A stretch of DNA of 64,000 bases from Burkholderia pseudomultivorans (lineage in GTDB: Bacteria; Pseudomonadota; Gammaproteobacteria; Burkholderiales; Burkholderiaceae), in assembly GCF_001718415.1 (NCBI RefSeq), contig NZ_CP013378.1, positions 806,001-870,000 of the forward strand. The letters run 5' to 3'. Below, one piece after another: positions 37,771 to 50,367 of this stretch. Both the position numbers and the translations under genes were made by a program. Under the pieces are notes generated by a model. The model did no database searches. It was not told the origin of the DNA and saw nothing but the letters and a program-made list of their open reading frames with translations. Within the stretch, counting starts at the first letter, position 1, and every line of letters begins with the position of its first letter.

Positions 37771-38081
37771 ACCCGCTTCATCCGGATTTTGGACCGAGCG
37801 TGAAAGTGGTCAGCAAAGAGCCTTTCAAGCTCGATCCTCGGTTATTCGGATAGTTGACACAGCGGCGCGATCGGGATCGATAGGGGCCGCGAGGCGAACG
37901 ATATTTGCGGCAGCGGTTCGATCGGCGATTACGTGATGCCGGCAGGCACCACATCGCATTGACCGGTCGCGGTGCCCGAACGGGCACCACGACCGCCGGG
38001 TGCTGACATCGTCGCCCGGATCGCCGACAATCTGCCGAAGCGCCGCGCCCGCGTGTGCCCCGCCGCCCGAGAGAGTTCCCC
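37771..38081. other. Intergenic region before the GNAT gene
   Basis: 311 bp without a gene. A perfect -35 box TTGACA at 37854-37859 followed at 17 bp by TCGATA (37877-37882) is a possible but weak sigma-70 promoter for the acetyltransferase gene about 200 bp downstream. Confidence 0.35.
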
Positions 38082-38612
38082 ATGTCCGGAATATCCGTCA
38101 GACCCGCCACGCTCGACGATGCGCAGGCGATCGCCGATTTTCACGTCAAAGTCTGGCGGCATACCTATCGCGATCTCGCGCCGAGGCAAGCGCATGACGT
38201 CCTCGACGAGCACTATCGCGGCAGGAAGTGGCGGGAGAAGCTGGCGTCGGGCGAGCGCGACCAGATGGTGCTGGTGGCGGAAACCGATGGGCGAATCGTC
38301 GGCATCGGAGCGGCCGGTGCGCCATCGGAGCCGATCTTCGGCGGCCGTGGCGAAATCAAGTTTCTTTATGTCGATCCCGAATTCGCGCGCCGTGGTATCG
38401 GCCGCCAGTTGCTGGCACGACTCGCCACGCACCTGGACGCATCGCGGTATCCCGGCGCCGCATTGAGCGTGGTCAAGGGAAACATGGCCGCAATCGCGTT
38501 TTATCAGGCGATGAAGGGCAGGTTCGCGGGCGAGTATGTCGATGCAGGGCCGATCTGGCGATCACCGAACATCGTAATGGTATGGGACGACTTCGCCAGC
38601 CTCGTTTCGTGA
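38082..38612 (+). CDS. GNAT-family N-acetyltransferase
   Basis: A 176-residue protein of the GNAT fold beginning ISVRPATLDDAQAIADFHVK, the usual RimI-like start. The acetyl-CoA pyrophosphate loop is in FLYVDPEFARRGIGRQLLARL (motif A, R/Q-x-x-G-x-G/A). The C-terminal part AALSVVKGNMAAIAFYQAMKG is motif B. The start at 38082 leaves out an upstream extension without homology. It stands alone between two LysR genes; the substrate is unknown. Confidence 0.93.
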   Translation: MSGISVRPATLDDAQAIADFHVKVWRHTYRDLAPRQAHDVLDEHYRGRKWREKLASGERDQMVLVAETDGRIVGIGAAGAPSEPIFGGRGEIKFLYVDPEFARRGIGRQLLARLATHLDASRYPGAALSVVKGNMAAIAFYQAMKGRFAGEYVDAGPIWRSPNIVMVWDDFASLVS

Positions 38613-38641: not shown

Positions 38642-39520
38642 TCAAGCAAGGCGTGCGCGCAGCCACGACGTGAACGCGGTCACGAGCGGCGTGTCGCTCA
38701 GTTCGTGCCGCGTGACGAGGTAGTACGCATGACGTGACGGCACCGTTGCGCCGAACGGCCGCACGAGCGTGCCGTCGATCAGGTCGTCGCGCACCGACAG
38801 GCTGTCGCCGAGCGCGACGCCTTGCCCGTGCACCGCGGCTTCGACGCCGATGTGCGCGTTGCCGATTTCCAGGATGCGGATGCCCGGCAGCTTGTCGGCG
38901 TTCGCCTCCGCCAGCCAGCGCATCCACGAGCCCGCATGCTCGCAGAACAGCGTGCGTCCCGCGAGATCCTGCACCTTGCGGATCGCCTCGGGCCCGTTCA
39001 TCAACGCGGGGCTCACGACCGGGAACAGCGCCGGATGCGCGAGCAGCTCGACGCGCTGGTTGCGCCAGTTGCCTTCGCCGTAGCGGATGCAGACGTCGAC
39101 GTCGGGCGAGTAAACCTCGCGGTCGTCGTTCGACGGAATCACCTTCAGGTGGATGCCCGGATAGCGCTCGAGAAAATCGCCGATGTGGCGGGCGAGCCAG
39201 CGCGACGTCAGCGACAGCGGCGTCGACACGACGAGATCGCCTACGGCGGCCGGTGAATCCAGCTTGACGGTCGCATTCGCGATCATGTCGAACGCGGTGC
39301 CGACCGGCTCCAGCAGCGCCTCGCCTTCGGGCGTGAGCTTCACGCGCGCCTTTGATCGGACGAAAAGCTCGACGCCGAGCGTGCTTTCGAGAATGCGGAT
39401 CTGGTGACTGACCGCGCTCGCGGTCACGTGCAGTTCATCGGCGGCGGCCGACACGCTGCCGCGGCGGGCGGCGGCTTCGAAAGCGCGAAGCGGGTTCAGC
39501 GGAGGCAGGCGGTTGCGCAT
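38642..39520 (-). CDS. LysR-family transcriptional regulator (GcvA-like), divergent to the C-N lyase operon
   Basis: A LysR regulator of the GcvA branch: RLPPLNPLRAFEAAARRGSV starts the helix-turn-helix, followed by LHVTASAVSHQIRILESTLG. The ATG at 39520 is chosen because it matches the family N-terminus; an upstream ATG at 39562 would add 14 residues. The effector domain has DLVVSTPLSLTSRWLARHIG and a C-terminal RHAYYLVTRHE. It is divergent from the argH-like operon with about 126 bp between, so it is the probable regulator of that operon. Confidence 0.93.
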   Translation of the reverse strand: MRNRLPPLNPLRAFEAAARRGSVSAAADELHVTASAVSHQIRILESTLGVELFVRSKARVKLTPEGEALLEPVGTAFDMIANATVKLDSPAAVGDLVVSTPLSLTSRWLARHIGDFLERYPGIHLKVIPSNDDREVYSPDVDVCIRYGEGNWRNQRVELLAHPALFPVVSPALMNGPEAIRKVQDLAGRTLFCEHAGSWMRWLAEANADKLPGIRILEIGNAHIGVEAAVHGQGVALGDSLSVRDDLIDGTLVRPFGATVPSRHAYYLVTRHELSDTPLVTAFTSWLRARLA

Positions 39521-39646
39521 CGGCAGGCGCGTCGAAGGCGACGGTGCTGAGAAAAATTTCATTTAAGCGGATTCAATTTCTCGCTACAACAAAAAAAATT
39601 GGATGCCTACAGTGGGGGCAATCCAACCGAGTCGAGGTCGACCGCA

Positions 39647-41080
39647 ATGAGCCTTACCGAACCGATCGAGCGCCTGTGGGGCGGCCGCTTCCAGTCGCAG
39701 CCGTCCGATGCGCTGCAGAACCTGTCCCGCTCCGATCCGAGTTTCTACCGCCTCGTGCCGTACGACCTGGCCGGCTCCCGGGCGCATGCGCGCGAACTGA
39801 ACCGCGCCGGCATCGTGACCGACGACGAGCTCGCGCAGCTGCTGGCCGCGATGGACGGCATGGCGCGCGACTATGCGGCAGGCGCGATCGCACCGTCGCT
39901 TGCCGACGAGGACGTGCACACCTTCCTCGAGCGCGTGCTCACGCAGCGGCTGCCGGCGCTCGGCGGCAAGCTGCGTGCCGGACGTTCGCGCAACGATCAG
40001 GCCGCGAACGACCTGCGCCTGTACCTGCGCGACAACGCGCGCCGGCTGGTGCGCGGCGTGCTCGACCTGCAGGACGCGCTGGTCGGCCAGGCGAACCGGC
40101 ATGCCGACACCGTGACCGCCGGCTTCACGCATCTGCAGCCCGCGCAGCCGATCGTGTTCGGCCATCAGCTGCTGGCGCATGCGCAGTCGCTGTATCGCGA
40201 CACCGACCGCCTGATCGACTGGGACCGCCGCACCGCGCGTTCGCCGCTCGGCGCGGCCGCGCTTGCGGGTTCGGCCATCTGCGTGCGGCCCGAGCTGTCC
40301 GCGCAGGAGCTCGGCTACGATGCGCCGTGCGAGAACTCGATCGACGCGGTCGCCGCGCGCGATCACGTCGCCGAGTTCGTGTTCGTCACGAGCATGCTGG
40401 CCGTGAACCTGTCGCGCCTGTCGGAAGAGGTGATTCTGTGGGCCTCCCGGCAATTCCGCTGGGTGGACCTCGACGACGGTTACGCGACGGGCAGCTCGAT
40501 CATGCCGCAGAAGAAGAACCCGGACATCGCGGAGCTGACGCGCGGCAAGGCCGGCCGCCTGATCGGCAACCTGACGGGCCTGCTCGCGACGCTGAAGTCG
40601 CTGCCCCTCGCGTACAACCGTGATCTTGCGGAAGACAAGCGCGCCGCGTTCGACTCGATCGACACGCTCGAACTCGTGCTGCCGGCAATGGCGGGGATGA
40701 TCCGCACGATGCGCGTGAACGTCGACGAGATGCGTCGCCAGGCGCCGCTCGGCTTCACGCTCGCGACCGAGGTCGCGGACTGGCTGGCCCTGACGGGCGT
40801 GCCGTTCAGCGAAGCGCACGAGATCACCGGCGCGCTCGTGCGCGCGTGCGAGCGCGACGGCATCGAGCTGGCCGACGCGAGCACGGAGCAGCTGCAGGCC
40901 GTCGATGCGCGCCTCGCGCCGGCGGTGCGCGCGCATCTGACGCTCGACGCGGCGGTCGCCGCGCGCACCGGTGCGGGCGGCACGTCGCCCGCGCGCGTGC
41001 GCGAACAGATCGCCCGCCTGAGCAGCGTGCTCGAACGCCAGGCCGCCTGGGCGGCCGACTACCGGGGGCCATCATGCTGA
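39647..41080 (+). CDS. Argininosuccinate lyase-like C-N lyase (operon member, probably not housekeeping ArgH)
   Basis: A 477-residue member of the fumarase/aspartase superfamily. It carries the ASL blocks [51 protein letters not shown] and the catalytic-Ser signature [15 protein letters not shown] and its relatives (EDDS lyase, iminodisuccinate lyase) split N-substituted aspartates to fumarate and an amine. Its overlap with an amino acid ABC importer, two deacetylase-fold genes and an MmgE/PrpD gene suggests a catabolic rather than arginine-biosynthetic role. A housekeeping argH would normally be elsewhere. Confidence 0.85.
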
Positions 41081-41949
41081 GTGCATCCGATTCGAGCCGT
41101 CTCGACGGCGCCGCGGTCGACGAGATCGCCGGCCTCGTGCGCGTGCGCCGGCGCTACTGGGGCCGCTATGCCGCATCGATCGCGATCATCGTCGCGCTCG
41201 CCTACGTAGCTGTCGCATTCGCGCGCGGACAGATCGAGTGGCGCGTCGTCGGCCAGTTCCTGAGCGCACGCGCGATTCTGACCGGGCTCGGCAACACGAT
41301 CGTGATGACCGTGCTCGCGATGACGCTCGGTATCGTGCTCGGGGTTGTCACCGCGGTGATGCGACTGTCGTCGAACCCGGTGCTCGGCGCGATCGCGCAG
41401 GGTTATATCTGGCTGTTCCGCGGCACGCCGGTCATCCTGCAGCTGCTGTTGTGGTTCAACCTCGCCCTGGTATTCCCGACGCTCGGCATCCCCGGCATCG
41501 CCGAATTCCGGACCGTCGACGTGATGACGCCGTTCCTCGCGGCCTTGCTCGGACTCGGCATCAACCAGGGCGCGTATACGTCGGAAGTCGTGCGCGCCGG
41601 GCTGCTGTCGGTCGACACCGGCCAGTACGAGGCCGCGAAATCGATCGGCATGCCGCGTCTGCAGGCGCTGCGCCGCATCATCCTGCCGCAGGCGATGCGC
41701 GTGATCGTGCCGCCGATCGGCAACGAGCTGATCGGCATGGTCAAGCTGACGTCGCTCGCGAGCGTCGTGCAGTATGCGGAGATGCTGCACAACGCGCAGA
41801 ACATCTACTACGCGAACGCGCGTGTGATCGAGCTGCTGATCGTCGCCGGCATCTGGTATCTCGCCGTCGTCACCGTACTGTCGCTCGCGCAGGCGCGTGT
41901 CGAACGACGCTTCGCGCGCGGCGCGGGCCGCTCGGCGGGCAGCAAATGA
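41074..41949 (+). CDS. Polar amino acid ABC transporter permease (HisM/GlnP-like)
   Basis: A 291-residue inner-membrane permease. The N-terminal about 50 residues form a cytoplasmic extension and a first helix; the transport domain begins [20 protein letters not shown]. The EAA loop [20 protein letters not shown] is canonical for the polar amino acid uptake family, with [16 protein letters not shown] before it. The start overlaps the lyase stop (ATGCTGA), and its own stop overlaps the ATPase start. Only one permease gene is present, so it probably works as a homodimer. Confidence 0.95.
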
Positions 41950-42749
41950 ACGGCACGACCCTCAAGCATCGGGAGAATCTCATGACGAACGCGGTGGTTC
42001 GCGCGGTAGACGTGCGCAAGTCGTACGGCGACTTCCAGGCGCTGCATGGCATCACGCTCGACGTCGCGCAGGGCGAAGTGCTGTGCATCATCGGGCCGTC
42101 GGGCTCGGGCAAGAGCACGTTCCTGCGCTGCATCAACCAGCTCGAGACGATCAGCGCGGGCGCACTGTGGGTCAACGGCGAACTCGCCGGCTACCGGCGT
42201 GACGGCAACCGGCTGTACGAGCTATCGGAGCGTCAGGTCGCACGCCAGCGGCTAGCAACGAGCATGGTGTTCCAGCGCTTCAACCTGTTCCCGCACAAGA
42301 CCGCGCTCGAGAACGTGATCGAAGGCCCGGTGCAGGTGCTCAAGCGCCGCCGCGCGCAGGCGCAGGAGGAAGCACGCGCGCTGCTCGCGCGCGTCGGACT
42401 CGCGCACAAGTGCGACGCGTTTCCGGTCGAGCTGTCGGGCGGCCAGCAGCAGCGCGTCGCGATCGCGCGGGCGCTCGCAATGCATCCGCAACTGATCCTG
42501 TTCGACGAACCGACCTCGGCGCTCGATCCCGAACTCGTCGGCGAAGTGTTGGCCGTGATGCGCGACCTCGCAAAGAGCGGGATGACGATGATCGTCGTCA
42601 CGCACGAGCTCGGCTTCGCGCGCGAGGTGGCCGATCGCGTCGTGTTCATGGACGGCGGTCGGATCGTCGAGAGCGGCCCGCCCGACCAGGTGCTGTCCGC
42701 ACCGTCGCACCCGCGCACGCGGGACTTCATCTCGGCGGTGATTGCGTGA
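41946..42749 (+). CDS. Amino acid ABC transporter ATP-binding protein (GlnQ/HisP-like)
   Basis: A 267-residue ABC ATPase with Walker [11 protein letters not shown]-loop FQRFNLFPH, signature [15 protein letters not shown], Walker [15 protein letters not shown] and H-loop VVTHELGFA. The sequence belongs to the PAAT family that drives uptake of amino acids and opines. An alternative ATG at 41982, preceded by gggaga, would give a protein 12 residues shorter that starts at the conserved domain; either is possible. It overlaps the permease gene by 4 bases. Confidence 0.95.
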
Positions 42750-42831
42750 ACGGGCAGGGCGCCCCGCGCAGCAGCGCCCGAACGATTCCTCCGTCAACGA
42801 ACCAAGCCCACCACGACAAGGCCACGCTCCC

Positions 42832-43671
42832 ATGAAAGCAACCTTCCTGATCCGCATCCTGAGTGCTGCCGTGTTCGGCGCCGCCGCACTGCACGCCTCG
42901 TTCTCGATTGCGCAATCCGCGCCGGCCGCCGCGAAGCGCACGCTGAATGTCGCGATCGTGCCGAACTACCCGCCGTTCGAATACAAGGACCCGGCGACCG
43001 ACAAGCTGGCGGGTTTCGACGTCGATCTCGGCGAAGCGCTCGCCGCGAAGATGGGCGCGAAGCTGAACTGGGTCGAGACGAGCTTCGACCAGATGATGAG
43101 CGCGGTTGCAACGCAACGCGTCGACATGATCCTGTCGGGCATGACCGACCTGCCGACACGCCGCGACGCGGTGACGTTCGTCGACTACATCGAGACGGGC
43201 CCGCAGTTCTACACGCTGAAGACGCGCGCCGCCGAGTTCCCGCAGATGAACGCGCTGTGCGGCAAGCGGGTCGGGTCGAGCCGACGCACGTCGTTCCCGG
43301 ACAACACGACCGCGTGGAGCGCGGAGAACTGCGTGAAGGACGGCAAGCCGGCGATCGTCGTGATCGGCACCGACGGCTCCGCCGACGCGCGCATGCAGCT
43401 GCGCCAGAACCGCATCGATGCGGCCGTGCAGGGCGGCGAGACGCTGCCATACCAGAACAGCCTCGAGCAGAACGCGTATGCGCCGGTCGGCAAGCCGTTC
43501 CTGGCGCAGTACACGGGCATCGGCGTGGCGAAAAACAACACCGCGCTGAGCAGCGCGCTGACCACGGCGCTCAACCAGCTGATCGCGGACGGCTCGTATC
43601 ACAAGCTGCTCGCGAAGTGGGGGCTGCAGGAGCACGCAGTGGCGAAGGCGATGATCAACGGCACGCACTGA
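42832..43671 (+). CDS. Amino acid ABC transporter substrate-binding protein
   Basis: A 279-residue periplasmic binding protein (SBP family 3). A signal peptide (ILSAAVFGAAALHASFSIAQ) precedes LNVAIVPNYPPFEYKDP, then GFDVDLGEALAAKMGAKLNW and QMMSAVATQRVDMILSGMT, the ligand-binding lobes. An R near CGKRVGSSRRTSFP would hold the carboxylate of the ligand. The ATG at 42832 gives a proper signal peptide. Together with the two previous genes it completes an importer for a carboxylated amine compound, consistent with the adjacent lyase. Confidence 0.95.
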   Translation: MKATFLIRILSAAVFGAAALHASFSIAQSAPAAAKRTLNVAIVPNYPPFEYKDPATDKLAGFDVDLGEALAAKMGAKLNWVETSFDQMMSAVATQRVDMILSGMTDLPTRRDAVTFVDYIETGPQFYTLKTRAAEFPQMNALCGKRVGSSRRTSFPDNTTAWSAENCVKDGKPAIVVIGTDGSADARMQLRQNRIDAAVQGGETLPYQNSLEQNAYAPVGKPFLAQYTGIGVAKNNTALSSALTTALNQLIADGSYHKLLAKWGLQEHAVAKAMINGTH

Positions 43672-43678
43672 GCGCGCG

Positions 43679-44551
43679 ATGGCCGAGCTCGCTCCCCGCT
43701 GGCCGGACGCGCAGCGCGCATGTGTCGCACTCGCGTTCGATCTCGACGGCCCGACCGGCGACGCGATGCTGAACGGGTCGATCTGGCGCAAGCCCGCGTA
43801 TTTCACGCTCGGCAGCTATGGGCCGTGGCGCGCGCTCGGGCGACTGCTCGACATGCTCGCGACTTTCGATGTGCCCGCAACGTTCTTCGTGCCGGCGTGG
43901 GTCGCGCAGACGTGGCCCGCGCAATGCGCGGCGATCGTCGAGCGCGGCCACGAGATCGGCTATCACGGCTACCGTCACGAAGCGTTTTGGACGCTCGAGC
44001 CTGCGCGGCAGCGCGAGATCATGGCGCAGTCGGCCGAGATCCTCGCGCGCACGCTCGGCGTGCGGCCGGTCGGGTTCCGCACGCCGTCCGGCGACTGGAG
44101 CGCGGCGACCGTGGACGTGCTGCGCGAAGCCGGCGTGCGCTATTCGAGCTCGATGCGCGGAGACGACCGGCCGTACCTGCTGCACAGCGAGAACGGTGAA
44201 CCGCCGCTGGTCGAGATTCCCGGCCGCTGGGAGACCGACGATTACGCATCGCTCGCGTACCACCGCAATCCCGACTATCCGGCCGGGCTCGACCGGATCG
44301 CGGGTTATGCCGCAACGCTCGACAACTGGACGCGCGAGTTCGACGGCGTGTACCGCGAAGGACTGTGCCTGACGACGCTACTGCATCCGAAAGTGTGCGG
44401 CAAGCCGGGCCGCATCGCGCTGCTCGAAGCATGGCTCGGCCACATGCGTGCGCAGGACGGCGTCTGGTTCGCGCGCTGCCATCAAGTAGCCGACTGGTGG
44501 CTCGCGCAGCACGCGCGAGACGCACAACCCATACCACGGAGCGATCGGTGA
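43679..44551 (+). CDS. Polysaccharide deacetylase-fold (NodB) amidohydrolase with intact metal ligands
   Basis: A 290-residue protein of the NodB/PgdA/PuuE carbohydrate esterase 4-like fold. The metal and base residues are visible: D21-L-D23 in ALAFDLDG and H96-x3-H100 in GYHGYRHE. The block RPVGFRTPSGDWS is the third motif. Members remove acyl or ureido groups from N-acyl substrates; PuuE, for example, hydrolyses allantoin. Being 7 bp after the binding-protein gene, it may deacylate the imported compound. It is partner to the degenerate homologue that follows, whose GTG start overlaps its stop. Confidence 0.88.
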   Translation: MAELAPRWPDAQRACVALAFDLDGPTGDAMLNGSIWRKPAYFTLGSYGPWRALGRLLDMLATFDVPATFFVPAWVAQTWPAQCAAIVERGHEIGYHGYRHEAFWTLEPARQREIMAQSAEILARTLGVRPVGFRTPSGDWSAATVDVLREAGVRYSSSMRGDDRPYLLHSENGEPPLVEIPGRWETDDYASLAYHRNPDYPAGLDRIAGYAATLDNWTREFDGVYREGLCLTTLLHPKVCGKPGRIALLEAWLGHMRAQDGVWFARCHQVADWWLAQHARDAQPIPRSDR

Positions 44552-45462
44552 CGACACAGCCTCCATGGCCGCGCGGCGCGCGATGCGCGGTCGCGATCAC
44601 GGTCGACTTCAACGACGTGCACGGCATCCAGACGCGCGAGCCGCGCATTGTCGGCCGCGAGAAGTCGCTGTCGGTATGGCGTTACGGCGCGACGCGCGGC
44701 GTCGACCGGCTGCTCGATGCATTCGAGGCATTCGGCGTGCCGGCGAGCTGGTTCGTGCCGGGCGTCGTCGCCGAAACGCACACGCCAGTCGTGCGTGAGA
44801 TCGCCGCGGCAGGCCATGAGCTTGGTGTGAGCGGCTACCGCTGCGAGGATTTCGACACGCTGCCGCTGGCCGCGCAGGTCGAGGCATGCCGCGCCGGGCA
44901 CGCTGCGCTCGCGAACGCGCTTGGCTGCGACGTGGAGGGCTTTCGGTCGTTCACCGGCAACTGGGCCGACGGCTTCGCGGATTTTCTGGTTGCGGAAGGC
45001 TTCACGTGGTCGTCGTCGTGGCGCGGCGACGATCTGCCATACGTTCATCCGCGTGGCAACTGTGACGGCGGCGCGGACCGAGTGTGTCTCGTCGAACTGC
45101 CGCTGCACTACGAACTTGAGGACGAACCGTACTTCGAGTTCAATCTGTCGCCGCCCGTGCCGACCGGCCAGCCGCGCATCGCAGCGTACCGCGACGTGCT
45201 CGACAACTGGCGGCGCGACGTCGACGGGTTCCGACGTTTCGGGCTGTGCTGCGTGATGCGCCTGCATCCCGAGATCATCGGCACGGCCGGGCGAATTGAT
45301 CTGCTGCGCGAGTTGCTTGCGCATTTGCGCGATACGGGCGACGTCTGGTTTGCGACCGGGCGCGAGATCGCGCGCTGGTGGCGTGCCCGGATGCCGGTCA
45401 ATCCGCCGGGCCATCCGGTCGACGTGTTCGCGCAGTGCGTAGCGGAGGCGTGCGGTCGATGA
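44548..45462 (+). CDS. Polysaccharide deacetylase-fold paralogue lacking the metal-binding His pair
   Basis: A 304-residue paralogue of the preceding protein with the same fold pattern (CAVAITVDFNDVHG, PASWFVPGVVAETHTP, HELGVSGYRCE, EGFRSFTGNWADGF). At the positions of the metal-binding His96 and His100 of the first protein it has Ser95 and Cys99, while Asp20 and Asp23 remain. It therefore probably does not bind zinc in the usual way. It could be a pseudoenzyme, a regulatory partner in a heterodimer, or use another chemistry. A GTG start overlaps the upstream stop, so the two are co-translated. Confidence 0.85.
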   Translation: MTTQPPWPRGARCAVAITVDFNDVHGIQTREPRIVGREKSLSVWRYGATRGVDRLLDAFEAFGVPASWFVPGVVAETHTPVVREIAAAGHELGVSGYRCEDFDTLPLAAQVEACRAGHAALANALGCDVEGFRSFTGNWADGFADFLVAEGFTWSSSWRGDDLPYVHPRGNCDGGADRVCLVELPLHYELEDEPYFEFNLSPPVPTGQPRIAAYRDVLDNWRRDVDGFRRFGLCCVMRLHPEIIGTAGRIDLLRELLAHLRDTGDVWFATGREIARWWRARMPVNPPGHPVDVFAQCVAEACGR

Positions 45463-46844
45463 ACGCGGTGACGGAAACGCGCGCCACGCGCCTTGCGACG
45501 TTCGTCGCGCAGATGGACGCGGACGCATTGCCGGACGAAGTCGTCGCGAAGGCGAAGCGTCATGTGCTCGACACGTTCGGCGCGGCGCTGGCGGGTACGT
45601 CGGCCGTCGAGACGCACAGCATGCGCGCGTTGACCGCCCCCGTCGGGCAGGGTGGGGCGACGCTATGGGGTACGCGCCGGACTGCGGGCGCGCGCGATGC
45701 GGCATTCGTCAACGGGATCGCCGCGCACGCGCTCGAACTCGACGATTCCGGCGGCTGCGATCATTCGGGCGCCGTCGTGCTGCCGGCCGTGCTTGCCGCG
45801 CTGTCGTGCGCGGGCCGCCCCGTGTCCGGCCGGGAATGCGTAACGGCGATCGTGCTCGGCTACGAAGTCGGACGACGTGTGCTCGAAGCGTCCGGCGGCT
45901 ACTCAGCCCATAACGGGGCGGGCTGGCATTCGACGCTCAGTTGCGGCGTGTTCGGCGCAGCAGCGGCGAGTGCACGGGTGCTCGGCCTCGGCGCCGCGCG
46001 CACGCGCGACGCGCTCGGCCATGCGGCAAGTTTCTCCAGCGGCTTGTGGGCTTTCATCCACGACGGATCGCAGACGAAGCGGCTGCATGCCGGCCGGGCT
46101 GCGGAAGGGGGCGTGCTCGCGGCGCTGCTGGCGCGCGAAGGCGTGAGCGGCCCTGCCAGGGTGTTCGACGACGTGTGGGGTGGTTTCTTCAACGCGTTCG
46201 CCGCGCAATCGCAGGCGCCCGACGCATTGATCGACGACCTGGGCGCGCACTGGAAACTGATGCGCTGCTCGATCAAGCCGCATGCGTCGTGCCGCAGCGC
46301 GCACGCGGCAGTCGACGCGGCACTGCAGCTTGCGGACGGTTGCACGTTCGAGGCCGGCGAGATCGAACGGGTGGTCGTGCGGACGAGCGCGTTCGTTGCC
46401 CGGATGTGCGGCGGCTGCGACCTGTCGACGCTGTCGTCGGCGCAGATGAGCCTGCCGTACGCGGTTGCGGCGGCCCTTGCGTTCGGCGACACGGGGATTG
46501 GTGCTTATCGCGATGACAGGCGTACGGATTCGCGCGTCACTGCGCTGCTTGAGCGCATTACGATCGAGATCGATCCGGCGCTCGGCGATCTCGACGAGCC
46601 GACCGTGATTCTGTATCGCGCGGATGGTCGGCGCGAATCGCGTCACGTGCCGATCGCACTCGGCGATCCGCGGAATCCGCTGTCGGATGCGGCGTTGTTG
46701 ACGAAGTATCGTGCGCTGGCAGGCATGGCGCTCGGTCGTGCGCAGATCGATATGTTGAGCGAGACGTGCCTGTCGCTGGAGCGGCAAGCGGATGCGCGGG
46801 TGTTGAACGAGCTGGTTGCCGGGGACGCGGAGAGTCGATCTTGA
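45459..46844 (+). CDS. MmgE/PrpD-family protein (iminodisuccinate epimerase-like or dehydratase)
   Basis: A 461-residue member of the MmgE/PrpD family. It has KRHVLDTFGAALAGTSAVET, HALELDDSGGCDHSGAVVLP, GYEVGRRVLEASGG, HASCRSAHAAVDAALQLADG and a normal-length C-terminal domain. Characterised members are 2-methylcitrate dehydratase, cis-aconitate decarboxylase and iminodisuccinate epimerase, a structurally defined founder of the fold. In an operon with an ASL-type lyase and an amino acid importer, an epimerase acting before the lyase is attractive. It overlaps the upstream deacetylase-like gene by 4 bases and is the last gene of the operon. Confidence 0.88.
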   Translation: MNAVTETRATRLATFVAQMDADALPDEVVAKAKRHVLDTFGAALAGTSAVETHSMRALTAPVGQGGATLWGTRRTAGARDAAFVNGIAAHALELDDSGGCDHSGAVVLPAVLAALSCAGRPVSGRECVTAIVLGYEVGRRVLEASGGYSAHNGAGWHSTLSCGVFGAAAASARVLGLGAARTRDALGHAASFSSGLWAFIHDGSQTKRLHAGRAAEGGVLAALLAREGVSGPARVFDDVWGGFFNAFAAQSQAPDALIDDLGAHWKLMRCSIKPHASCRSAHAAVDAALQLADGCTFEAGEIERVVVRTSAFVARMCGGCDLSTLSSAQMSLPYAVAAALAFGDTGIGAYRDDRRTDSRVTALLERITIEIDPALGDLDEPTVILYRADGRRESRHVPIALGDPRNPLSDAALLTKYRALAGMALGRAQIDMLSETCLSLERQADARVLNELVAGDAESRS

Positions 46845-47216: not shown

Positions 47217-48227
47217 CTACTGCGACGGTGCTGCCTCATACGTTCGGCCATGCGCCAGCAGCGCCCAGATTGTTCGCGCCATCTTGTTTGCGAGTGCAAC
47301 AGCAACGACGTTCGTTGGTCGTCGGGACAGCATCTGGCGCAAACGCTCCGGCAAGTGCTTTGAGCTCGAGATGACCGATCGCGCGCCGTGGATCAGCAGC
47401 GTCCGCAGATAAACGTCACCGCGTTTGCTGATCCCACCGAGCTTGATCTTGCCTCCCGAACCGTTCTGCCGCGGCACGAGACCGAGATAGGCGGCAAACT
47501 CCCGCCCCGAGCGAAACGTTCTTGCCTGTCCAATGACCGAAACCGCGGCAGTTGCCGTGAGTACGCCCACGCCCGGAATCTCCGAGATGCGCAGGCATGC
47601 ATCATCGTTGCGCCGCCAACTGAGAATGCGTTGCTCGATCCGAGCAATCTGCTCATCGAGCGCACAGAGTCGCGAAAGCTGATCCTGCAGGCTGTCTAGC
47701 AGCATGGCCGGCAACTCGTCGGCCAGTGACGCCAGCGCGGCTTTGGCGGCTTCGATCGATGCACGACGGCCTTGAGGCAACACGACGCCGAACTCGTAGA
47801 GCAATCCGCGAAGTTGGTTGACCTGCATGACGCGAATCCGGACCAATTGCTGGCGTATCCGGTGCATCGCCAGCATGGCCTGCTGGTCTTCGGTCTTAAC
47901 GGCCACGAACCGCATGCCGGGACGCTGGGCAGCTTCCCAGATCGCCGCGGCGTCAGCCGCATCATTCTTGTTAGACTTCACGAACGGCCGCACGAACTGA
48001 GCTGCGATGAGCCGCACGTCGTGGCCAAGCCGTGCCAGTACCCGGGCCCAATGATGAGCGCTGCCACAGGCCTCCATAACGACGCGGCTCGCCGGCCGGT
48101 TGGCGAAGAACGGCGCGAGCTGGGCACGTTTGAGTACCTTGCTGTGAATCGCGCCGGTTTCAGGCTCGACATAATGAATCTGGAAAACGCGCTTGGCCAG
48201 ATCGATGGCAATGGTCGTGGGTTCCAT
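47217..48227 (-). CDS. IS110-family DEDD transposase
   Basis: A 336-residue transposase. The RuvC-like DEDD residues are recognised in TIAIDLAKRVFQIH, ASRVVMEACGSAHHW and KSNKNDAADAAAIWEA. The C-terminal Tnp_20 domain carries ISEIPGVGVLTATAAVSVIG and GGISKRGDVYLRTLLIHGAR, which includes the nucleophile-type serine region. The ATG at 48227 has a strong aaggag ribosome binding site on its strand; an upstream extension is discarded. No frameshift or stop is seen, so the element may be active. Confidence 0.95.
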   Translation of the reverse strand: MEPTTIAIDLAKRVFQIHYVEPETGAIHSKVLKRAQLAPFFANRPASRVVMEACGSAHHWARVLARLGHDVRLIAAQFVRPFVKSNKNDAADAAAIWEAAQRPGMRFVAVKTEDQQAMLAMHRIRQQLVRIRVMQVNQLRGLLYEFGVVLPQGRRASIEAAKAALASLADELPAMLLDSLQDQLSRLCALDEQIARIEQRILSWRRNDDACLRISEIPGVGVLTATAAVSVIGQARTFRSGREFAAYLGLVPRQNGSGGKIKLGGISKRGDVYLRTLLIHGARSVISSSKHLPERLRQMLSRRPTNVVAVALANKMARTIWALLAHGRTYEAAPSQ

Positions 48228-48383
48228 TTGGTTCTCCTTGGCGGCTGGGCTGCCGAACCAGCAATGTCGCATGCTCTGGACGCGAGATTGCGGCGCCGGA
48301 CGGCCCGTTAAGGCGGGAGGCGACCATTCCATCTAAAAAGCTCTAACATCCAATCCGACGATAACTATGATTATGTAAACTAA

Positions 48384-49917: not shown

Positions 49918-50001
49918 CCCTGAAACGCCGGACACAGTCACCCACTTACAATAACGGGTAGGCATAAGACTGTGTTTTTGACTAACACCAGGCAGGAAGT
50001 G

Positions 50002-50367
50002 ATGGAAGTGTTGACGGGCCCGGAGCGCCGGCGGCGCTGGACGGCGGAGCAAAAGCTGGCGATGGTTCGCGAGAGTTTCGAACCAGGGAAGTCGGTTTCG
50101 ATGGTCGCGCGGCAGCACGGCGTGAACCCGAACCAGCTGTTCCACTGGCGCAAGCTGTACCAGGATGGGAGCCTGTCAGCGGTCAAGGCTGGCGAGGAAG
50201 TGGTTCCGGCCTCAGAGCTGGCCGACGCGCTCAAGCAGATTCGCGAGCTGCAACGGATGCTCGGCAAGAAGACCATGGAGAACGAGATTCTCCGCGAAGC
50301 AGTCGAGTATGGCCGAGCAAAAAAATGGATAGCGCACTCGCCCTCGCTGCCGGAGGACGACCAGTGA
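50002..50367 (+). CDS. IS3-family transposase OrfA
   Basis: The 121-residue DNA-binding subunit. It has the helix-turn-helix ([40 protein letters not shown]) and a C-terminal leucine-rich coiled coil ([20 protein letters not shown]). The ATG at 50002 starts at the conserved domain; a GTG 30 bases earlier is possible. At 50319-50325 an A AAA AAA heptamer is placed in its frame so that a -1 shift enters orfB and yields the OrfAB transposase. Confidence 0.92.

Follow-up and report, generated by a model that had tools for sequence, protein, structure and literature searches.

Related catabolic systems

Among the systems described to date, those nearest in logic to the operon considered here are the yxe, or S-(2-succino) lyase (2SL), loci of Dickeya and Enterococcus, beside which it is set by their description in passages of PMC9706529. 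The operon lies in a 64,000-nucleotide stretch of Burkholderia pseudomultivorans DNA (contig NZ_CP013378.1, positions 806,001 to 870,000; hereafter the window), within a genome of 7.96 Mb assembled as three contigs, and encodes a lyase of the argininosuccinate lyase (ASL) superfamily, an ATP-binding cassette (ABC) importer of the amino acid type, two NodB-fold proteins (NodB-1 and NodB-2) and an MmgE/PrpD protein. It is a conserved operon, most likely catabolic, whose lyase has been mislabelled argH. In the yxe loci an ASL-superfamily lyase likewise has as neighbours an amino acid ABC importer, a deacetylase and YxeQ, a protein which those passages list as of 'unknown function' (PMC9706529); passages of the S-(2-succino)cysteine papers state no role for it. 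The loci compared here differ in having two NodB-fold proteins instead of YxeP, in the absence of an acetyltransferase beside most of them, and in the nitrogen- rather than sulphur-linked expression reported for Sinorhizobium meliloti (see below). An earlier reading of the window from its letters alone (the sequence-only reading) knew of no described operon with this exact set of genes, and no literature was found that joins argininosuccinate lyase, polysaccharide deacetylase and prpd; in layout, the yxe loci are nevertheless a described relative.

For the MmgE/PrpD protein the nearest precedent is the breakdown of iminodisuccinate (IDS) in Agrobacterium BY6, where an epimerase is followed by a C-N lyase. 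The two systems have in common the MmgE/PrpD fold (IDS-epimerase structure 2hp0), shared residues and the logic of an epimerase followed by a lyase, but the MmgE sequences are distant and, to our knowledge, the BY6 system includes neither NodB proteins nor guanidino hydrolases. YxeQ is presumably also an MmgE/PrpD protein. The lyase resembles ArgH in its catalytic motifs, its fumarate-side residues and its acceptance by the ArgH model TIGR00838, but differs in its separate grouping, its import- and catabolic-type neighbours and the replacement of two ArgH-invariant residues. Both NodB proteins match the fold of PuuE allantoinase/HpPgdA-type hydrolases over their whole length, whereas their scores fall far under the PuuE family cut-off and the D-H-H metal-site pattern is complete in NodB-1 only. 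The opine and arginine catabolic operons of the occ/noc type share a HisJ-type importer and a LysR regulator with the operon, and arginase and ornithine cyclodeaminase genes lie near two of its relatives; a predicted fumarate-forming lyase and an MmgE protein take the place of the opine oxidase.

Conservation and distribution

The operon is real and conserved beyond chance. In a survey of 200 genomes of the family, the window's own included, NodB-2 (E<=1e-30) was detected in 17, one of which (G037) gave only a 33% match, and the lyase (profile, E<=1e-170) and the MmgE protein (profile, E<=1e-150) in 16 each; the identical 16 genomes carry all three. The remaining 184 genomes had no match to the three genes at these thresholds, apart from the NodB protein of G037. 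In the neighbourhoods of 15 further operon genomes the core genes stand together in 14. In the remaining one, G047 (locus L048), the set is divided between two contigs, the first with the LysR, NodB-1, NodB-2 and MmgE genes, the second with a LysR-lyase-permease-ATPase-binding protein unit. In a class-level survey the MmgE profile matched 19 of 229 genomes at E<=1e-25; with the window's own genome excluded none exceeded 268 bits, against 859 bits for the window protein.

A wider scan, with loci chosen by NodB-2, retained 80 of 172 confirmed loci; related genomes among these are not independent, some belong also to the family set, and loci L051 and L092 yield the same lyase. NodB-1 stands beside NodB-2 in all 80, accompanied by the binding protein in 78, MmgE (at least 250 bits) in 74 and the lyase (at least 400 bits) in 73, and by our count the full set occurs in the order of the window in 60. 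Of the seven loci without the lyase, five end at a contig edge, L079 has it on a separate contig, and L086 has none beside the set. The operon is split into two neighbouring units with their own LysR genes in six loci (L070, L071, L073, L075, L077, and L082), and the lyase gene is relocated in L076 and L078. The loci derive from Burkholderia, Trinickia, Caballeronia, Paraburkholderia, Variovorax, Rouxiella, Acerihabitans, Serratia, Pantoea, Winslowiella, and Pseudomonas, from metagenome-assembled genomes labelled Rhodoferax and Rhodospirillales, and from two records labelled Enterobacterales and Gammaproteobacteria. The sequence-only reading had named lack of conservation as a unit in relatives as fatal to its proposal; the unit is conserved in both the family genomes and the 80 loci.

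Several plasmid-borne relatives extend the comparison. On pSymB of S. meliloti (record of strain R14) a LysR gene accompanies the order lyase-permease-ATPase-binding protein-MmgE-single deacetylase, the ATPase having been found by tblastn. Two Agrobacterium plasmids and Neorhizobium have the same set with an added 'speB' (ureohydrolase) gene 30-32 bases 3′ of the deacetylase gene. In Chelatococcus a GNAT gene follows the deacetylase gene and a racemase gene adjoins, and in Microvirga arginase, ornithine cyclodeaminase, GNAT and ureohydrolase genes surround the set. The Paracoccus plasmid has the order permease-ATPase-binding protein-NodB-1-NodB-2-MmgE-LysR, adjoining arginase and ornithine cyclodeaminase genes, and no lyase was detected on it at E<=1e-30. 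Ensifer, Rhizobium 11515TR and Ochrobactrum carry an alternative lyase (39-41% identical) at the opposite end of the operon.

The ArgH-like lyase

The window's genome has six PF00206 matches. A search of 15 operon genomes found in every one both an operon lyase, 64-100% identical to that of the window, and an ArgH (39-45%). The records label the operon lyase argH because the curated ArgH model accepts it. In a 39-row tree the 19 main-type operon lyases cluster together on a long branch (support 100/100), apart from 14 ArgH sequences, and three alternative lyases form another (100/100); the tree carries a long-branch warning for three distant paralogues and for the alternative lyases, and its 14 ArgH rows do not make a single group. 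The lyase is thus a paralogue distinct from housekeeping ArgH, as judged from its sequence. According to the sequence-only reading, a place inside the ArgH clade as the sole argH of the genome would have spoken against its proposal, but the protein lies outside the ArgH rows, and its genome has a further ArgH-like gene.

Residues were compared in 76 rows, 75 of them distinct (the window, 73 of the 80 loci and two others). Positions 90, 114-117, 162, 163, 284, 285, 290, 292, 324, and 332 are invariant, and all 76 rows keep the residues for catalysis and for the fumarate side (R-x-N, T-H, S-S loop, K, N, Y, K), some of whose roles we assume. Two other positions depart from ArgH. Position 34 (human ASL D31), Asp in 14/14 ArgH, is Phe in 40 rows and Tyr in 36, and position 329 (human Q326), Gln in 14/14 ArgH, is Ala in 40, Ser in 30 and Ile in six; the six main-type alphaproteobacterial lyases have Tyr at the former and Ala or Ser at the latter. 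Position 30 (human S27) is Ser in 53 rows and Cys in 23. Since the fumarate-side residues are kept and two ArgH-invariant residues are replaced, its substrate is probably some succino adduct, not argininosuccinate, from which the enzyme would release fumarate. Passages of PMC7601404 and PMC2779060 do not state which residues of ASL contact the arginine side. As side observations, the genome of locus L068 (G202) has two operon-type lyases (81% and 79% identity), and that of L217 (G009) combines the full operon with a second LysR-lyase-permease-ATPase-binding protein unit that lacks the NodB and MmgE genes.

The MmgE/PrpD and NodB-fold proteins

The best solved relative of the MmgE/PrpD protein is the IDS-epimerase 2hp0 (142 bits, E 3e-40; by profile 182 bits, E 1.6e-52), followed by cis-aconitate decarboxylases, so that the parallel drawn in the sequence-only reading is borne out at this level. 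Residues D95, H102, H157, K207, K273, and C278 are conserved in 75/75 rows and in all 17 rows of a further alignment, and the alignment with the IDS-epimerase contains residues common to both. The protein is a probable epimerase. An MFS transporter gene lies directly 3′ of NodB-2 in the Pseudomonas operons that lack MmgE (see below), and the same gene follows MmgE in other Pseudomonas loci.

NodB-2 is 40% identical to NodB-1. The residues D21, D23, H96, and H100 of NodB-1 are present in 81/81 rows, whereas the position of H96 is never His in the 81 NodB-2 rows (Ser 43, Ala 28, Ile 4, Cys 4, Asn 2) and that of H100 is Cys in 45, His in 30 and Phe in six. In the alternative type (four rows) the first position is His in 4/4 and the second Thr, Phe, Phe, and Ile; main-type rhizobial operons have a single NodB protein, and the three that were aligned retain both histidines. 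AlphaFold 2 models of NodB-1 and NodB-2 (mean predicted local distance difference test 79 and 81, from alignments of 14 and 12 rows) gave query-normalised template modelling (TM) scores of 0.82 and 0.77 to 3rxz and of 0.78 and 0.76 to PuuE allantoinase (3cl6). Over the whole length these scores are 0.71-0.82 for the PuuE/HpPgdA group, mostly 0.46-0.57 for classical CE4 proteins and 0.59-0.61 for ArnD; target-normalised CE4 scores reach 0.81, a difference that arises partly because CE4 domains are shorter. To the PuuE model TIGR03212 the two proteins score 97.4 and 73.8 bits, well under its cut-off of 424.6. As the metal-ligand histidine of NodB-2 is lost in 81/81 rows, NodB-2 is probably not a second independent deacylase, contrary to the two deacylases of the sequence-only reading; we infer instead a hetero-oligomer of NodB-1 and NodB-2 with one type of active site.

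The importer

In the 79 rows of the periplasmic binding protein, Arg110 (equivalent to R77 of HisJ), Arg151, and Gly201 are invariant and Arg152 is present in 78. Gly201 aligns with the Asp of the QDE motif in Escherichia coli HisJ and ArgT. With the carboxylate-binding Arg kept and Gly in place of the amino-binding Asp, the ligand is read as a carboxylated compound that would lack a free alpha-amino group. An alternative type of binding protein (four rows) keeps the Gly and Arg151 and has Ser in place of Arg152, and the two types may bind related yet different ligands.

Gene organization and control region

All the genes listed by the sequence-only reading are present at the locus (Table 1), and the overlapping arrangement divergent from a LysR gene is as it described, but the operon has seven genes rather than six. 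Successive genes overlap by 7, 4, 4 and 4 bases or are separated by gaps of 82 and 7 bases; the starts of the lyase (ATG 39647), permease (ATG 41074) and NodB-2 (GTG 44548) genes were refined. Pfam detected no monooxygenase or M20 deacetylase in the operon, in which the ABC importer and the MmgE protein are present.

Table 1. Features of the operon and its divergent regulator, in window coordinates
Feature	Position	Strand	Basis
LysR-family regulator, GcvA-like, divergent from operon	38642..39562	-	Pfam LysR_substrate, HTH_1
Divergent control region, inverted repeat within	39563..39646		Alignment of Burkholderia rows
ASL-superfamily lyase, ArgH paralogue, predicted fumarate release from succino adduct	39647..41080	+	TIGR00838, tree, residues
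Polar amino acid ABC transporter permease	41074..41949	+	BPD_transp_1, TIGR01726; position kept in relatives
ABC transporter ATPase, polar amino acid type	41946..42749	+	ABC_tran; TcyN/GlnQ-like, under those cut-offs
Periplasmic binding protein, SBP_bac_3	42832..43671	+	Pfam SBP_bac_3; residue conservation, HisJ/ArgT alignment
NodB-1, PuuE/HpPgdA-type NodB-fold hydrolase, full D-H-H metal-site pattern	43679..44551	+	Polysacc_deac_1, AlphaFold 2 model
NodB-2, NodB-1 paralogue, metal-ligand histidine lost, probable partner subunit	44548..45462	+	Residue counts, AlphaFold 2 model
MmgE/PrpD-fold protein, probable epimerase	45459..46844	+	MmgE_PrpD_N, MmgE_PrpD_C; 2hp0 match

The best NCBIfam match of the regulator is PRK11139 (GcvA), at 289 bits against a cut-off of 288. 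A close homologue occupies the equivalent place in many related loci, and rhizobia, Pseudomonas/Enterobacterales and some Caballeronia/Paraburkholderia have LysR genes of different types there instead. The intergenic region between the LysR and lyase genes is almost identical across 10 aligned Burkholderia rows and contains, at 39571-39604, the inverted repeat ATTCAATTT-N16-AAATTGGAT; the other rows, nine in all, have AAATTGAAT as the right arm, and L054 has a single-base change in the left arm. The repeat is likely to be the operator of the LysR regulator. A simple scan gave no sigma-70-type promoter, and for that reason the single promoter of the sequence-only reading can only be presumed. 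A sigma-54 promoter upstream of the lyase gene was considered and rejected, the best match in the window having only 6 of 11 consensus bases. Among 13 stretches scanned, good matches were seen in L096 (9), L099 (10), and L103 (11), and as all of these lie on the strand toward the LysR gene no sigma-54 dependence is claimed.

Around the operon, a GNAT acetyltransferase gene (38055-38612, + strand) is convergent with the LysR gene. Among the 13 Burkholderia loci L053-L065, 12 retain it next to the operon, the exception being L064, and neither L064 nor the other 67 of the 80 loci contain a homologue (E 1e-8). Just downstream of the operon are two transposase-like open reading frames (47217-48332, - strand; 49972-50367, + strand), by eye of IS110 type and an OrfA of IS3/IS2 type. 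An Fe-ADH gene, glycerol-dehydrogenase-like, lies near the operon in seven of eight Enterobacterales loci (L097, L099-L102, L104, and L109); five loci from other groups (L082, L091, L096, L103, and L105) have a class II aldolase-family gene nearby.

Possible guanidino and nitrogen links

Genes adjoining the operon in some relatives outside the genus of the window hint at a guanidino leaving group. The best solved relatives of the product of the in-operon 'speB' gene of Agrobacterium are 3-guanidinopropionase (286 bits) and guanidinobutyrase (258 bits), followed by agmatinases (193-202 bits), and a ureohydrolase or arginase gene lies in or near the operon in six lineages, counting Agrobacterium/Neorhizobium, Microvirga and Paracoccus. 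These neighbours may indicate a guanidino compound in place of the iminodisuccinate or N-acyl aspartate considered by the sequence-only reading. An anhydride of argininosuccinate has been measured, at m/z 273 beside 291 (PMC11016166), and no tie between it and operon-bearing bacteria was found in the passages of that paper concerned with it.

A link to nitrogen metabolism is suggested by expression data for a tolC mutant of S. meliloti 1021, as given in passages of PMC2912261, the only paper found to deal with argH2 or SMb21094-21099. In this mutant argH2 (SMb21094) is down 20.7-fold by microarray and 4.5-fold by polymerase chain reaction, SMb21095, SMb21096, and SMb21097 are down 10.3-, 10.7- and 17.5-fold, and the ntrC, glnK, nitrate and hut genes drop together with argH2, while argH1, most other arginine genes and cysN are up (PMC2912261). 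The authors describe the transporter as being of unknown function and invoke lower NtrC (PMC2912261). From the single lyase match on pSymB and the order of the genes, SMb21094-21097 would correspond to the operon described here.

Proposed pathway and alternative explanations

It is likely that the operon is dedicated to the catabolism of some succino adduct, that is, a compound with nitrogen (less likely sulphur) bonded to C2 of succinate. The reading preferred here, to which we give a probability of about 0.45, is that of a nitrogen-scavenging operon for the uptake and breakdown of such an adduct, with a guanidino-succinate as the preferred candidate. The ABC importer would take in a polycarboxylate with a blocked alpha-amino group or none; the MmgE/PrpD protein would epimerise the succino carbon, making both stereoisomers usable; and the ArgH-like lyase would eliminate fumarate by beta-elimination, leaving a free nucleophile. 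Before or after this step the NodB-1/NodB-2 pair would hydrolyse an amide, either by opening a lactam or anhydride or by removing an N-acyl group, and the freed part would enter nitrogen metabolism. The gene set, its conservation, the separate grouping of the lyase and its kept and altered residues are observed; each reaction, like the substrate, is proposed. The substrate envisaged is a relative of argininosuccinate or of its cyclic anhydride, and the guanidino product would be split by a guanidino-acid hydrolase or arginase. That the substrate belongs to the guanidino class is put forward tentatively, at somewhat less than even odds. A complete novel pathway for guanidino-succinates such as argininosuccinate cyclic anhydrides or a deaminated or N-blocked analogue, with import, epimerisation, ring opening by a hetero-oligomeric NodB pair, fumarate release by a re-tooled ArgH, and urea release, is rather doubtful in that full form.

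A number of observations weigh against the preferred reading. The lyase passes the curated ArgH equivalog TIGR00838 comfortably (527.1 bits, cut-off 279.5), and in Ensifer, Rhizobium and Ochrobactrum the alternative lyases (three rows) retain the Asp and Gln and have Phe in place of Tyr324, so that the substrate may differ among lineages. The Asp and Gln replaced in the main type are taken by us to contact the arginine part of argininosuccinate, and in HisJ, R77 and D161 are likewise assumed to bind the carboxylate and the amino group. Five Pseudomonas operons (L110, L115, L120, L124, and L132) lack MmgE, and the epimerase would therefore be dispensable; their genomes contain distant MmgE relatives in three cases and none at E<=1e-15 in two. 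The guanidino link was spotted post hoc. A search of the 80 loci for three types of ureohydrolase found them in only four (L094, 64% identical to that of Agrobacterium, L096, L104, and L109), five of ten plasmid loci have none (L193, L195, L199, L202, and L203), and the five PF00491 ureohydrolase matches of the window's genome all lie outside the window. Ureohydrolases of the type concerned are common in rhizobia outside the operon (211 plasmid records). In the family the Variovorax-type enzyme occurs, elsewhere in the genome, in 16/16 operon genomes against 57/184 others, which lends no support, since it is found in all 23 genomes of the genus and the comparison is confounded by genus. It is because of this post hoc origin, partial presence, rhizobial commonness and null family-wide test that the guanidino assignment is held with reserve.

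The alternative closest to the sequence-only reading takes as substrate a secondary amine of the N-succino amino acid kind (iminodisuccinate, ethylenediaminedisuccinate (EDDS), aspergillomarasmine or its lactam). MmgE would then act as an IDS-epimerase, the lyase would cut a C-N bond, and NodB would open the lactam. The kinship of the MmgE protein agrees with this, as does a binding protein without the amino-binding Asp and with extra conserved Arg residues, which would suit a polycarboxylate, and the altered lyase pocket would accommodate a short leaving group. We consider it unlikely, given that the lyase is far closer to argininosuccinate lyase 6iem (504.8 bits) than to EDDS lyase 6g3d (208.9 bits), that MmgE is only distantly related to the IDS-epimerase, and that the guanidino hydrolases and arginase near some loci would be left unexplained. 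That the operon encodes a modified yxe route for S-(2-succino)cysteine, in which acetylation, lyase and deacetylation steps follow one another and the NodB proteins replace YxeP, is improbable. According to passages of PMC9706529 the yxe loci combine an ABC importer, an acetyltransferase, a deacetylase and YxeQ with an ASL-type S-(2-succino) lyase whose preferred substrate is N-acetylated, and a GNAT gene does adjoin the deacetylase gene in Chelatococcus and Microvirga and stands beside the LysR gene in most of the Burkholderia loci noted above; yet the GNAT of the window is missing from the great majority of the 80 loci, there is no sulphur gene among the annotated neighbours, and in the tolC mutant argH2 drops with the nitrogen genes while cysN rises (PMC2912261).

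That the lyase is simply a second argininosuccinate lyase salvaging argininosuccinate is decidedly improbable. Its TIGR00838 score, the argH label of the records and the ArgH residues kept by the alternative lyases would fit such a role, but both residues invariant in 14/14 ArgH are replaced in 76/76 rows, the lyase stands in a separate tree group on a long branch, and the tolC mutant moves argH2 in the opposite direction to argH1 and most other arginine genes (PMC2912261). It is highly improbable that the transporter-lyase and NodB-MmgE units are neighbours by happenstance and do not serve one pathway. Separate units with their own LysR genes exist in six loci and in G047, the Paracoccus plasmid has a NodB-MmgE-transporter set without a lyase, and G009 has an extra transporter-lyase unit. 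Against this, 60 of the 80 loci have one operon in the order of the window, and the coincidence of lyase, MmgE and NodB-2 in 16 of 200 genomes, among them G047 with its separated units, supports a single pathway.

Implications

A nitrogen-scavenging operon of the kind proposed would pair a probable epimerase naturally with a fumarate-releasing lyase and would include two paired NodB-fold proteins, one of them having lost the metal site. The operon is widespread in soil and plant bacteria, hidden under the label argH, and as the curated ArgH model accepts its lyase, reconstructions of the arginine pathway can miscount. Its apparent presence in the model organism S. meliloti, as argH2, makes the substrate directly testable.

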